A stretch of 54,734 nt of DNA, from positions 1-54,734 of the forward strand of contig NZ_FNHW01000008.1 in the NCBI RefSeq assembly GCF_900103485.1, in the 5' to 3' direction. Within the stretch, counting starts at the first letter, position 1. Every line of letters starts with the position of its first letter. Positions 1-54,651 of this stretch are shown here, one piece after another. The notes beneath the pieces are model-generated. The model was not told the origin of the DNA. It saw only the letters and a list, made by a program, of their open reading frames with translations, and ran no database searches. The position numbers and the translations under genes are program-made. This stretch comes from Fictibacillus solisalsi (GTDB lineage Bacteria > Bacillota > Bacilli > Bacillales > Fictibacillaceae).

Positions 1-221
1 GAAACCGACTTTCAAAAAAGAAACAGGCGTTTCTCTTTATTATCCGGTATTAGCTCCGGTTTCCCGGAGTTATCCCCGTCTTACAGGTAGGTTGCCCACG
101 TGTTACTCACCCGTCCGCCGCTAACATCAGAGGAGCAAGCTCCTCATCTGTCCGCTCGACTTGCATGTATTAGGCACGCCGCCAGCGTTCGTCCTGAGCC
201 AGGATCAAACTCTCCAATAAA
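1..221 (-). rRNA. 16S ribosomal RNA, 5' end only
   Basis: On the minus strand the sequence begins at about 221 with the universal 16S 5' segment (GAGAGTTTGATCCTGGCTCA, then AACGCTGGCGGC) and runs off the window at position 1, so only the first roughly 220 nt are present. The V1 region and the conserved stretch around the 8F primer site are visible. It is the first gene of an rRNA operon transcribed leftwards, preceded by tandem promoters and a boxA. The exact mature 5' end is set by analogy with Bacillus. Confidence 0.97.
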
Positions 222-24618: not shown

Positions 24619-26208
24619 TTAACTCCTTCTTTCTTTCCAGCGGCTCATTACATGCCGGATTTTTTGTAATTTGGGAATACGCATAAGGTCATCTGCTCTA
24701 AACACCTTGGCCAGCAGCAATGCGGCTAACAACACGATTCCCCCTCCTGCACTGGAGCCCAGGGAAATGACGGCGCTGGCTGTGCGGGTCTCGGGCAGCA
24801 CTGCAGCTAATCCTGATTTGGCGAGCCAGGCTGACACTGCCATAAGGGCGACTGCACTTCCAATGCGCACCCCATAAAACCTCTCCACTGTGGCAAACCC
24901 GGTCCTTTTTTCAAGAAAAAAGAGGTTAATGCCTGTTGCCAAACAGGATGCAAAAACGGTAGCAGCACTTGCTCCTAGCGCATGAAAAGACGGCATCAGA
25001 ACGGCATTTCCAGCAATTTTAAGTAAAAATGCCAGTAAAACACTGATGACAGGATAAACGGTCAATCCAAGCCCTTGAAGCAAGCCAGTTGAGGTCAGGA
25101 ACAAAGAGACCGGCAAAATCGATATTCCGAGCACAGCGATCTCAAGGGATCCCTCTTTATTTTCAAACAGCATGGTATTGACCGGCTCAATAATGACCGC
25201 AAGGCCAGCAGCTGCAGCCAGTCCAATAATAAAAACAACCTTGATCGACAGGCCGCAGATTTTGCGTACACCTGCAGCATCTCCACGCCTTTTTGCCGCT
25301 GCCACCGCTGGGACAGCGGCGAGGGAAAGCGACGTTGCGATCACTGTTCCAAGTTGAAGAAGAGGCTGTGCTCTATCAAAAATGCCTTTTATTTCCCTGG
25401 CATTCTCTAAAACGATACCACTTTTACCGAGAAAATTGACAAAGGTAAACGCATCAGCGAGCTGAAACAGCAGCAGGATCATGGAGCAAAGGGACAGCAG
25501 CAATCCTGCAGACAGCAGCTGAACACTGCTTTTTCCAGGCAAAGTTAAGCGAGGGCGCATCCCTCTTTGTTCCTTTTGCTCCCTACGGAAAAAGAGGAAC
25601 AAGACGAGAAGCCCCGCCAGCGCCCCTACAACAGAGCCTGTGGTCGCAGCTGCACCTGCTGTATAGACACTGTACCCCTGCGACATAAAGTAATAGGAAA
25701 AACCAATGATGCACAAAACACGGACGGACTGTTCAACCACCTGGGAGCAGGCCGTCGGCTTCATCTGTTCTGCGCCTTGAAAAACCCCTCTGAACACGGC
25801 CACAAACGGCACAAGCAAGTAAATAAAGGATGTAGCTTGAATCGGCAGCTGCAAACGGGCATCACCCATCCAGCTGGCAATGTGGGCAGAGCCGAAGAAA
25901 AGCAAAACAAACAAAAGGATGCCCGCAGCCAAAAACGCGGGAAACGCCTCCTGAACCAACTTTTCCCGATGGGCTGCCATCTCTCCCGATTCAGACAATA
26001 TGCGGGACAGCGCAACCGGGAATCCCGCCAAAGCAAAGGTTGAAGCTATCCCGTAAAAAGGGTACACCTGCTGAAACACATAAAAGCCGGTATCCCCCGT
26101 TATATTCTGATAAGGAATGCGATAAACCACACTCAATATTTTTACAATAACCATGGCAAGCGCCAGCACAACCGCACCCTGCCATATCTGTTTCGATTGA
26201 TCGTCCAT
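24619..26208 (-). CDS. yabM: Polysaccharide/lipid flippase of the MOP family (YabM)
   Basis: Integral membrane protein of 529 residues with about fourteen hydrophobic helices and the MATE-like/SpoVB family opening GAVVLALAMVIVKILSVVYRIPYQNITG. The RIPYQN motif and GDTGFYVFQQVYPFYG are shared with SpoVB, which moves cell-wall lipid intermediates. The exact substrate is unknown. The start at 26208 is set by AGGAG about 5-6 nt upstream; an in-frame TTG 5 codons earlier lacks a site. Its extended -10 promoter lies beside the palindromic repeat array. Confidence 0.88.
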   Translation of the reverse strand: MDDQSKQIWQGAVVLALAMVIVKILSVVYRIPYQNITGDTGFYVFQQVYPFYGIASTFALAGFPVALSRILSESGEMAAHREKLVQEAFPAFLAAGILLFVLLFFGSAHIASWMGDARLQLPIQATSFIYLLVPFVAVFRGVFQGAEQMKPTACSQVVEQSVRVLCIIGFSYYFMSQGYSVYTAGAAATTGSVVGALAGLLVLFLFFRREQKEQRGMRPRLTLPGKSSVQLLSAGLLLSLCSMILLLFQLADAFTFVNFLGKSGIVLENAREIKGIFDRAQPLLQLGTVIATSLSLAAVPAVAAAKRRGDAAGVRKICGLSIKVVFIIGLAAAAGLAVIIEPVNTMLFENKEGSLEIAVLGISILPVSLFLTSTGLLQGLGLTVYPVISVLLAFLLKIAGNAVLMPSFHALGASAATVFASCLATGINLFFLEKRTGFATVERFYGVRIGSAVALMAVSAWLAKSGLAAVLPETRTASAVISLGSSAGGGIVLLAALLLAKVFRADDLMRIPKLQKIRHVMSRWKERRS

Positions 26209-26245
26209 ACCTTCTCCTAACAAAAAATAACATAACGTACAACGT

Positions 26246-26255: not shown

Positions 26256-26375
26256 GGAAAAGCTGAAGTGACCGTTTAGAGATGAAAAGCGCTGGAGCAC
26301 TCCCGTCACAACACGCTTTTTGTGTTGAAACGGGAGAGCGAAGCGATCGAATCTCTGGTCACTGAAGCTGGATCA
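26256..26375. repeat. Palindromic extragenic element, copy A
   Basis: 120 bp starting GGAAAAGCTGAAG and ending GAAGCTGGATCA. The outer stem is AGTGACC (26267-26273) with GGTCACT (26357-26363), and AGAGAT (26278) with ATCTCT (26351). Inner stems include CTCCCGT / ACGGGAG. The whole can fold as one long hairpin. Copy B follows directly. Confidence 0.9.
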
Positions 26376-26493
26376 GGAAAAGCTGAAGCCGCTGTTAAGA
26401 GACGACAAGCATTGGAGGACTTCTGCATAAAACGATTTTTGTTTTCTGCAGGAGGCCGAAATGATCGAGTCTCTAGCGGCTGAAGCTGGATCA
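26376..26493. repeat. Palindromic extragenic element, copy B
   Basis: 118 bp with the same borders as copy A. The outer stem has changed on both sides: AGCCGCT (26387-26393) with AGCGGCT (26475-26481), and AGAGAC (26398) with GTCTCT (26469). Pairing is kept although the bases differ, which indicates selection or copying for structure. Confidence 0.9.
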
Positions 26494-26530
26494 GGAAAAG
26501 CTGAAGTGACCGTTTAGAGATGAAAAGCGC
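26494..26530. repeat. Palindromic extragenic element, truncated copy C
   Basis: The first 37 bp are identical to the beginning of copy A, then similarity stops abruptly just before the spoVT terminator. This looks like a partial insertion or a deletion remnant. Confidence 0.85.
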
Positions 26531-26542
26531 ACGAAAGACGAC

Positions 26543-26574
26543 AAAAAAGAAGGAGCCGAGGCACCCTTCTTTTA
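26543..26574 (-). terminator. Terminator after spoVT
   Basis: Minus strand: AAAAGAAGG and GCC pairing with GGC and CCTTCTTTT, ending in a T run. It includes the spoVT stop codon. Confidence 0.85.
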
Positions 26575-27108
26575 ATGTTCCATTTGCCGGGCAAGAAAGC
26601 CGGCTGCTGTTTCTGCAAGCTTTTGCTCAAGCTCTGTCATTTTTTTGCCTTCTTTCGATAGAAGGGTGACAACACCAATTGGGTCGCCGCTGGCTACGAT
26701 GGGGGCAATAACATAAGATGAAGACTCTGAATTTCCGTCAACCATTTCCACGTCCGTGCTGCTGGCCTCAAGCACCGACTTACGGTCGTTCATGGAAGTC
26801 TCTACGACCTTCCCGATTCCTTTATTCAAATAATCCTTCTTGGATCCTCCCGCCACCGCAATATACGAGTCGCGATCAGCGATGAGAACCATATGCCCAG
26901 AGCTGTCAGCCAGGGATTCTGCATATTCTTTCGCAAAATCGCCAAGCTCATTAATCGGCGAATACTTCTTCAGGATGACTTCCCCGTCCCGGTCTACAAA
27001 AATCTCTAAAGGATCGCCTTCTCTGATACGAAGCGTGCGGCGAATCTCTTTTGGAATAACAACCCGGCCAAGGTCATCAATACGGCGTACAATGCCTGTT
27101 GCTTTCAT
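26572..27108 (-). CDS. spoVT: Stage V sporulation transcription factor SpoVT
   Basis: Forespore regulator that tunes sigma-G genes. The 178 residues consist of an AbrB-type DNA-binding N terminus (MKATGIVRRIDDLGRVVIPK, EIRRTLRIREGDPLEIFVD) and a C-terminal GAF-like domain (about 56-178, with SGHMVLIADRDSYIAVAGG and SYVIAPIVASGDPIGVVTLL). The N-terminal 50 residues closely resemble AbrB encoded 20 kb away. Normal length; a sigma-G-like promoter is present upstream. Confidence 0.97.
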   Translation of the reverse strand: MKATGIVRRIDDLGRVVIPKEIRRTLRIREGDPLEIFVDRDGEVILKKYSPINELGDFAKEYAESLADSSGHMVLIADRDSYIAVAGGSKKDYLNKGIGKVVETSMNDRKSVLEASSTDVEMVDGNSESSSYVIAPIVASGDPIGVVTLLSKEGKKMTELEQKLAETAAGFLARQMEH

Positions 27109-33757: not shown

Positions 33758-35137
33758 TTACGCTTTATTGTTGTCTTTGAATTTGGAAACATAATTTTCT
33801 TTGTTCGTTTGACGGCTTCTGGCAATCGAAAGTGCTTCTGAAGGAACATCTTCCGTAATGGTTGAACCAGCAGCTACGTACGCATTTTTCCCAACTGTCA
33901 CAGGAGCAATCAAATTTGAATTACAGCCAATGAATGCACCGTCTTCCACTTTGGTGAGGTGTTTGTTTACCCCATCATAGTTTACCATAATTGTGCCGCA
34001 GCCGAGGTTAACATCTCTGCCAATTTCTGCATCTCCCACATAGGTAAGGTGGGATGCTTTGCTGCCTTGGGCCATTACTGATTTCTTTACTTCTACAAAG
34101 TTACCGATTTTAACCTGGTCTTCAATGGAAGAAGCCGGCCGTATATGAGCAAATGGGCCGATATTGACTTCATTGCCCACTTCACTGTCGTGAACCACTG
34201 ATTGCTTAATGGAATTGCTATTTCCAATCGTGCTGTCCTTGATCTCACTGTTTGGGCCAATGATGTTATTATCGCCAATTCGGGATGTCCCGGTAATCAT
34301 GGTGCCTGGATAAATAACGGTATCCCTGCCAATGACTGCATCTGCAGAAATATAAGTCTGATCCGGGTCCACGAGTGTGACACCATTTCTCATGTGGTTT
34401 TCATTAATTCGTTTTTTCATCGTTTTCTCTGCTTGCGAAAGTGCCACACGGTCATTAACACCTAGCGTTTCATCAAATGACGGCGTTTGGTAAGCTGCTA
34501 CGGTTTCCCCCTGCTTTTGAATGATTTCAATAACATCCGGAAGGTAATATTCGCCTTGGGAATTATCATTGTTTACAGAAGAAAGAGCCTCAAATAAGGC
34601 CTTGTTATCGAAGCAGTAGGTTCCTGTATTGATTTCCTGCACCAGTTTCTCTTCATCTGTTGCGTCTTTGTGCTCAACGATCCGCTCAACCGTTCCGCTT
34701 CCATTGCGAAGGACCCGGCCGTAGCCTGCAGGATCTTCGGCTTTTGCAGTCAAAATGCTGACTTTTGCATCGGCGGCCTGGTGTTCATCAATCAGTTTTT
34801 GCATGGTCTCTGCAGTAATCAGAGGCGTGTCTCCGCATACCACGAGCGTAATGCCTTCCTCGTTGGACAACGTTTCTTCCGCTTGCATTACAGCATGTGC
34901 CGTTCCAAGCTGCTCTTCCTGAAGAACATACTCTGAAGCGTCTCCTAGCTGGTCTTTTACTTTTTCAGCTCCGTGGCCTACCACTGTTACGATCTTCTTC
35001 ATGTTAAGCTGAGAGATTTGATCGACCACATGTTGTACCATCGGTTTGCCGCAGACAGGATGTAGTACTTTATATAGACTGGATTTCATTCTTGTTCCTT
35101 GACCTGCAGCTAACACTACTGCATAGCGATTACTCAT
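33758..35137 (-). CDS. glmU: Bifunctional UDP-GlcNAc pyrophosphorylase / glucosamine-1-P acetyltransferase
   Basis: Final two steps to UDP-GlcNAc, the precursor of peptidoglycan and teichoic acid linkers (gcaD in B. subtilis). The N-terminal uridylyltransferase has [21 protein letters not shown] and VVCGDTPLI. The C-terminal half (about 250-459) is a left-handed beta helix of hexapeptide repeats, with the acetyl-CoA site region [11 protein letters not shown] and [11 protein letters not shown]. 459 residues is normal. GTGGAGG precedes the ATG at good spacing. Confidence 0.98.
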
Positions 35138-35242: not shown

Positions 35243-35364
35243 GTTAAAAAGCGGAAGCGCCTTGCTCAAAAGTGACAGACGTTGGAGTTTTCGAACACAA
35301 TACGTTCTTCTGTATTTTGTGAGAAAGCGAAACGGCAGAGCTTTTAGGCGCTGGAGCTGGATTC
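35243..35364. repeat. Palindromic extragenic element, copy D
   Basis: About 122 bp of the same family as copies A-C: it opens AAAGCGGAAGCGCC, has GACAGACGTTGGAG where B has GACAAGCATTGGAG, and ends GGAGCTGGAT. Outer stem AGCGCCT (35256-35262) with AGGCGCT (35346-35352), plus AAAAG (35268) with CTTTT (35341). The stem sequence is different again, but paired. Confidence 0.88.
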
Positions 35365-35440
35365 GTTAAAAAGCGGAAGCGCCTTGCTCAAAAGCGACAG
35401 ACGTTGGAGTTTTCGACCACAATACGTTCCTTGTATTTTT
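35365..35440. repeat. Palindromic extragenic element, truncated copy E
   Basis: Nearly identical to the first 76 bp of copy D, starting GTTAAAAAGCGG, then diverging; the 3' half of the hairpin is missing. Copies D and E are in tandem, as A, B and C are near spoVT. Confidence 0.85.
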
Positions 35441-35554: not shown

Positions 35555-35845
35555 TCAGGATGCTCCTGCTTCTTCAAAAGCAGATTCCATTTCACCCATT
35601 CTGTGATACTCCGTCAATACCGCGTTTTGGATCTTCTCGCGTGTACTCGACGTGATTGGGTGTGCAATATCTCTAAATTCTCCATCCGGCGTTCTTTTGC
35701 TAGGCATAGCAACAAACATTCCGTTGTTTCCATCAATCACACGTATATCATGAATAACAAACTCATGATCGATTGTAATTGAAGCAATCGCTTTCATTCG
35801 GCCCTCAGTGTTCACCCTTCTTAGTCGTACATCAGTCACTTCCAT
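35555..35845 (-). CDS. spoVG: RNA/DNA-binding regulator SpoVG
   Basis: Small conserved protein affecting septation and cortex formation in Bacillus and virulence genes in relatives; purified homologues bind nucleic acid. It is 96 residues from the ATG at 35845 ([20 protein letters not shown]), matching the known protein. AAGGTGG lies 8 nt upstream, and the four-codon extension from a GTG overlaps that site. Also recognisable: [22 protein letters not shown] sigma-H promoter and an AT-rich tract precede it. Confidence 0.97.
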
Positions 35846-35887
35846 TCCAAACACCACCTTTTTCCATAAATAAGAACGTATAACAAC

Positions 35888-54534: not shown

Positions 54535-54651
54535 GCCCGGCAACGTCCTACTCTAACAGGGGGAAGCCCCCAACTACCATCGGCGCTGAAGAGCTTAACT
54601 TCCGTGTTCGGTATGGGAACGGGTGTGACCTCTTCGCTATTGCCACCAGAC
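54535..54651 (-). rRNA. 5S ribosomal RNA
   Basis: 117 nt on the minus strand beginning GTCTGGTGGCAATAGCGAAG and ending GCCGGGC, with the universal CCCATACCGAACACGGAAGT loop and GTAGGACGTTGCC. Terminal arms pair. It is the last gene of an rRNA operon that continues beyond the right edge; 54652-54734 is 23S-5S spacer. RNase M5, encoded at 41 kb, would mature it. Confidence 0.97.

Follow-up and report, generated by a model that had tools for sequence, protein, structure and literature searches.

Small folding repeats are common in bacteria, and it is often unknown which nucleic acid form of them is under selection. The bcr1 to bcr3 repeats of the Bacillus cereus group are intergenic sequences of 100–400 bp, of which bcr1, with an average of 39 copies, has been called MITE-like; about half of the bcr copies lie within transcripts, and the first bcr element was confined to the B. 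cereus group, with a mobility tied to a TTTAT motif, according to the portions of the two reports that we cite (PMC3446304, PMC6542083). The family that we describe here is likewise intergenic and, as far as these descriptions go, is set apart from bcr by its presence in many genera of Bacillales and by its TAA/TTA-rich 5′ borders. The cited part of a third report describes the REP and BIME sequences associated with RAYT proteins (GTAG and CGTC super-families) as extragenic palindromes of 20–40 bp, some of which occur in tandem groups, and MITEs such as ERIC, RUP and NEMIS as 70–300-bp sequences devoid of coding capacity that adjoin genes (PMC3733652). Palindromes and tandem groups are common to REPs and to the present family, but the unit of the latter spans 118 positions and Y1 proteins went undetected in several of the genomes that carry it. 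As expected of MITEs, the family is non-coding, dispersed and insertion-polymorphic, but in the loci that we opened it lacks a clear target duplication or a parent transposon, and it differs further by its head-to-tail arrays bearing a remnant of their own 5′ end and by a full-length covarying fold with internal loops. Integron attC sites, in which the shape of one folded strand is recognized and the arm sequences vary while pairing is kept, would resemble it by analogy only, through their one-strand shape and their varying paired arms. No published description of the family was found in literature searches covering the beginnings of abstracts and text passages. The family is akin to MITEs and REPs and fits none of the tested families; it is a real and widespread variant of the small palindromic repeats, undescribed in the literature searched.

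The window analyzed here is a 54,734-nt stretch of Fictibacillus solisalsi DNA. The contig starts inside a 16S rRNA gene (window 1–220, − strand) and stops shortly after a 5S rRNA gene (54535–54650, − strand), and the window is probably the stretch between two rRNA operons. The units that it contains and their neighbors are the following.

24619..26223, − strand: SpoVB/MurJ-like transporter gene flanking A to C (166 bits, below the SpoVB cut-off of 372)
26256..26375, + strand: unit A, complete folding element (model positions 1–118 = 26257–26375; 127.7 bits)
26376..26493, + strand: unit B, complete folding element, head to tail with A (121 bits)
26494..26530, + strand: C, 37-nt remnant identical to the 5′ end of A, without the 3′ arm
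26572..27108, − strand: spoVT, flanking A to C
33758..35137, − strand: glmU, flanking D and E
35243..35364, + strand: unit D, complete folding element (100.1 bits)
35365..35440, + strand: E, second unit with a D-like 5′ part and a decayed 3′ arm (33.2 bits)
35555..35857, − strand: spoVG, flanking D and E

A, B and C lie between the SpoVB-like gene and spoVT, and D and E between glmU and spoVG. All units of the window are on the + strand, head to tail, and all four flanking genes are on the − strand. The first-pass annotation of this DNA counted five copies; A, B and D are indeed complete, imperfect palindromes of about 118 nt, whereas C and E proved to be 3′-truncated or decayed. Over the first 37 nt, C is 100% identical to A and B is 76% like A, and a blastn search of the own genome matched E to D over 76 of 120 query bases. 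The arm pairs that the annotation had read in the stems, AGTGACC/GGTCACT in A, AGCCGCT/AGCGGCT in B and AGCGCCT/AGGCGCT in D, are present, as are the next helices that it listed. Compared with 200 shuffled sequences, A and B fold far better than every shuffle (z = −6.50 and −5.44, respectively), and for D a single shuffle was as good (z = −2.56).

RNAalifold applied to 16 aligned full units of the own genome returned 33 pairs, which arrange the unit of about 118 nt into five stacked helices with internal loops between them. As read from the alignment, a short outer helix is followed by a G-A/G-A internal loop and a 7-bp helix, then by a 5′-side bulge of roughly four bases, a 6-bp helix and a GACAAG-like/ATCGA-like internal loop. 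The inner part consists of a 4-bp helix (CGTT/AACG), a GGA/GA loop and a 6-bp helix; the top is formed by a longer loop and by an apical hairpin whose loop is T-rich. The internal loops could harbor tandem G·A pairs, likewise read from the alignments.

Among the 16 own-genome units, 96.2% of the pairs are standard, compared to 32–48% in controls with slid partners, and double-sided changes are found at 21 of the 33 pairs. The covariation score of 0.495 was reached by none of 500 shuffles (0.192, sd 0.015) and dropped to 0.06–0.10 with partners slid, bearing out the suggestion that the stems covary. Larger sets lean towards the structure, given that units were gathered by similarity to the model and the larger alignments were fitted to it, a bias that affects the slid controls and the G·U:A·C test below less: 95.4% of the cells pair in 128 distinct Fictibacillus copies (31–44% slid), with double changes at 29 of 33 pairs; 92.6% pair in 55 distinct copies from other families, with a score of 0.821 compared to 0.226 in shuffles; and 94.1% pair in the pooled set, in which 29 and 15 of 500 shuffles reached two weaker measures. 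In the 55 other-family copies, further pair types were not above shuffles (265/500 reach the observed value), and 53 of them lack one outer pair. Covariation in the own-genome, Fictibacillus, other-family and pooled sets upholds the view that the folded form matters: the helices vary in sequence as long as their pairing is retained.

Mismatched cells tell which strand folds. G·U outnumbers A·C by about 3.5 to 1 in three sets (124:35, 25:7 and 34:10), other mismatches (144, 22 and 59) exceeding G·U in all but the second. Since a symmetric DNA cruciform predicts roughly equal numbers of both, this excess indicates that one strand folds and that it does so under selection. The sense strand, as RNA or as single-stranded DNA, is thus what folds, not a symmetric cruciform, and it is the strand on which the annotation had written the elements.

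A blastn search of the own genome, which comprises 4.8 Mb in 14 contigs, found further copies, and a first covariance model of 118 positions was built from 16 own-genome copies. At E ≤ 1, this model matched the own genome 31 times, with 23 matches below 1e-8, including the 16 model units, which match by construction; a broader model gave 25 at E ≤ 0.1, and one array may count twice where matches lie at contig ends (C1, C2, C6, C12 and C14). Loci L020/L024 and L006/L027 group together in the site grouping, and L071 and L199 are one and the same place. The genome-wide search proposed in the first-pass annotation thus returned copies that covary beyond chance. The occurrence of related GCGGAAGCGCC-type elements in other bacteria, which it mentioned, is also supported, for the family is widespread in Bacillales, including many spore-forming bacteria: at E ≤ 0.1, the first model found matches in 35 of 40 genomes (the own genome and 39 relatives), representing 16 of 20 genera. 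In a sample of the class, with up to 12 candidates scored per genome, 39 of 299 genomes including the own one had a match at E ≤ 1e-6; of these, 18 belong to the own order, 19 to a single other family and 2 to neither. The broader model, with up to 9 candidates scored per genome, detected the family in 6 of 398 genomes of a phylum sample, including the own one, all within the class. An exact pattern search of named genomes found 82 stretches, in Fictibacillus, Pseudalkalibacillus and Alkalihalobacillus. Of the relatives, G001 to G006 are assigned to the genus of the window. Plasmids had no match to the window units, to one L366 unit pair or to one L192 unit, phages had none to the L192 unit used as the query, and viral contigs had none to one exact pattern. 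Rfam 15 gave no gathering-score match over the window units, only weak sub-threshold matches over units, and none for the family in the loci of 13 relatives, where the four matches are rRNAs and two riboswitches situated elsewhere in the loci.

We cut out 81 arrays and grouped them into 33 sites, 23 of which occur in at least two of seven genomes, site sharing being judged among the fetched arrays only. The number of units at one site often differs between species. In Fictibacillus, the 5′ border is constant and the 3′ border ragged. AT-rich sequence forms the 5′ border, in which TTA or TAA often precedes GAAAAGC; base counts in the 5′ flanks reveal AT-richness only, and the last three bases before the unit were T in 35, A in 41 and A in 48 of 50 tail-bearing copies. 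The bases that precede a unit often recur, by eye, between units. The whole unit is itself an inverted repeat whose flanks prefer TAA/TTA, and no clear target-site duplication was found in these flanks; the empty site of F. macauensis has diverged too far to reveal any.

In 45 of 75 Fictibacillus arrays and in 8 of 19 arrays of other families, the last full unit is followed downstream by a piece of the 5′ end of the array's own unit. A 3′ fragment lies upstream of the array in 1 of 75 and 0 of 19, respectively, and control windows for the remnants contained 0 or 1 each. In a mixed set consisting mostly of arrays from one Pseudalkalibacillus genome (G023), the 5′ remnant was found once in 24 arrays, as in the control (1/24). 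By a different criterion, it was counted in 52 of 71 Fictibacillus arrays and 9 of 16 others. Remnants measure 9–122 nt. Simple 3′ decay as their cause is not favored, as 43 of 52 are shorter than 50 nt and 17 of 52 are 10–15 nt long, the short ones being near the detection limit. Of 15 multi-unit Fictibacillus arrays, 9 carry a remnant closest to the last unit and 5 one closest to the first, so that simple local duplication and loss are also possible; in six other multi-unit arrays it is closest to the first unit in 3, to the last in 1 and tied in 2, and C of the window copies A, the first unit of its array. The directional 5′ remnant suggests either copying that begins at a fixed point and continues beyond the end of the unit or array contraction always from one side.

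Units of G023 are followed by a conserved 3′ tail (195 matches compared to 0 in a reversed-pattern control). In this 26-nt tail, CTTTCTTA is the mirror of TAAGAAAAG at the 5′ end, and the two may form an outer terminal inverted repeat; no repeat of this type was seen by eye in Fictibacillus arrays. No coding partner of the family was found, and no autonomous copy in 30 of the 195 tail-bearing loci of G023 plus one of G021; in 29 of these the 5′ start lies 112–224 nt upstream, and one has no recognized start.

The spoVT and spoVG loci were compared in 25 genomes, 18 of them outside Fictibacillus. Units occupy the spoVT site in five of seven Fictibacillus genomes and the spoVG site in five; by eye, G003 retains a 5′ fragment at the former and G005 a short remnant at the latter. 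F. macauensis has no unit at either site, which reveals the insertion polymorphism that the annotation had proposed to look for. In the 18 other genomes, neither locus had a match, apart from one of 39.5 bits at the spoVG locus of G010. The two window sites were not seen to be conserved between genera. At the spoVT site of G003 (L316), a short GGCGCGTATT-like repeat was noticed by eye in the spacer after the 5′ fragment. Among 22 units examined in G023, three pairs at different loci are 99–100% identical, although for one pair the flanks also score 102 and it may belong to a longer repeat. In Fictibacillus, the best between-locus identity within one genome is 93% among the units fetched, and orthologous units reach 99%. 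Judging from these identities, dispersal is older in Fictibacillus than in G023.

With moderate confidence, we regard the family as a non-autonomous, structure-dependent mobile repeat of Bacillales whose folded strand lets it spread. The folded sense strand would be exposed as single-stranded DNA in replication and recognized by its shape by a host or foreign enzyme. Insertion would take place at AT-rich sites, often after TAA or TTA, and also where an older copy begins with TAAGAAAAG; insertion there would produce head-to-tail arrays. Copying would start at the 5′ border and overrun the end, leaving a 5′ fragment downstream; recombination would then enlarge and shrink the arrays, and harmful insertions would be purged, a process that we propose as the source of both the excess of antisense sites and the spacer location of the window arrays (see below). 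A more specific and unlikely version supposes a new copying mode: an unknown enzyme would read the shape of the folded sense strand instead of its sequence and copy, from the 5′ border, one or more whole units and a portion of the one that follows, which would leave a piece of the array's own start at its end, the fold being held later because it is useful or still read at the site. Against mobility, neither an enzyme, an autonomous copy nor a clear target duplication was found, and the mostly-G023 set is without the remnant. The lack of matches in plasmids, phages and viral contigs with the queries given above, and the excess of other mismatches over G·U in two of the three sets, also count against it. 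If mobility is correct, the family has spread through a large part of an order without being linked so far to any enzyme. Its many copies in many genera point to one folded strand, bear a directional scar and offer natural empty sites, so that both the function of the fold and the enzyme that moves the units become testable.

It is possible, if somewhat unlikely, that the family instead acts as a functional RNA, the sense transcript of which would fold, bind a protein or be cut by an RNase, and set the stability or coupling of the neighboring message, or act in trans. The sense-strand G·U preference and the possible tandem G·A pairs agree with such a role, and compensatory change at shared Fictibacillus sites makes it a serious rival. 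Double Watson-Crick changes there number 5 compared to 0.4 expected at ≥92% identity, 47 compared to 3.6 at 80–92%, and 155 compared to 20 and 122 compared to 19 in further identity classes; these comparisons overlap, and deep pairs may be non-orthologous since arrays turn over. As pairing is held at old sites, these data would suit a host function too. Sense units also occur in the atpA-atpG intergenic region of at least five of seven Fictibacillus genomes (L022, L123, L142, L166 and L181; genes named from L181) and, in G008, between the 3′ end of the 23S and the 5S rRNA gene (L068:261–378); from their position, these copies should be transcribed in sense, the G008 unit being copied into pre-rRNA.

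The placement of the family makes a role inside mRNA less likely. Seventeen of the 33 distinct sites are antisense to both neighbors, compared to 4 that are sense to both (P = 0.007 for 17 vs 4) and 12 mixed, and the 76 arrays divide into 42, 10 and 24, respectively. In G032 and G006, the sense strand runs against the replication fork in 59 of 84 arrays (31/46 and 28/38) and with it in 25 (P = 0.0003), the 46 and 38 arrays being hand-collapsed from the 80 of 82 and 43 of 48 matches listed, and the origins being placed where we assume them to be from the position of spoVT and the gene order of B. subtilis. Gene direction and fork direction are not separable in these placement counts. Orientation against the fork is the reverse of that of IS200/IS605. 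Both arrays of the window seem to be flanked by the end of one gene and by promoter-like sites of the next, recognized by eye at spoVT and by a scan for glmU, for which shuffles give about one such site by chance. Our promoter and terminator scan detected nothing at A to C, and inside D it found a promoter-like site on the + strand of a kind that shuffles also give; the terminator hairpins of spoVT and spoVG were seen by eye and missed by the scan. Given the excess of antisense over sense sites and the apparent location of the window arrays in spacer DNA, single-stranded DNA seems more likely than RNA. The vacancy of both window sites in other genera and the sub-threshold Rfam scores also argue against a functional RNA.

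Mobilization of REP-type palindromes by a RAYT (REP-associated tyrosine transposase) or an IS200/IS605 enzyme seems improbable. The strand-specific fold, intergenic location, tandem arrangement and replication-strand bias are consistent with such a system, and Y1 (PF01797) proteins are encoded in 33 of the 40 genomes; G029 and G038 have neither elements nor Y1, as a Y1 link would predict. Yet no transposase was found together with the elements. Five element-rich genomes (G000, G003, G004, G035 and G036, three of them Fictibacillus), with 13–38 element matches, have no Y1 protein at E ≤ 1e-5, and G013, G028 and G037 have Y1 without elements. The 30 Y1 loci examined contained one strong and one marginal element match, and the unit measures 118 nt, not 20–40 nt. 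A Y1 or RAYT enzyme is at present not needed to account for the elements, unless it was lost after spreading, which is possible.

Intramolecular template switching (quasi-palindrome correction), which would keep the arms alike without selection and generate double changes in one step without any function, is very improbable, because close orthologues at shared Fictibacillus sites differ mostly by one-sided changes (52 vs 5 double in 27 pairs at ≥92% identity), because a symmetric process is not expected to favor G·U over A·C, and because unlike internal loops, which arm copying would erase, persist in the consensus of 95 distinct pooled copies.

The fold also varies in its details. Units at L027, L029, L031, L191 and L193 display, by eye, extra hairpins in the 3′ internal loop or a branched apex, with the basal helices kept. 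Some units of Pseudalkalibacillus G023 have a different apical part bearing two hairpins.
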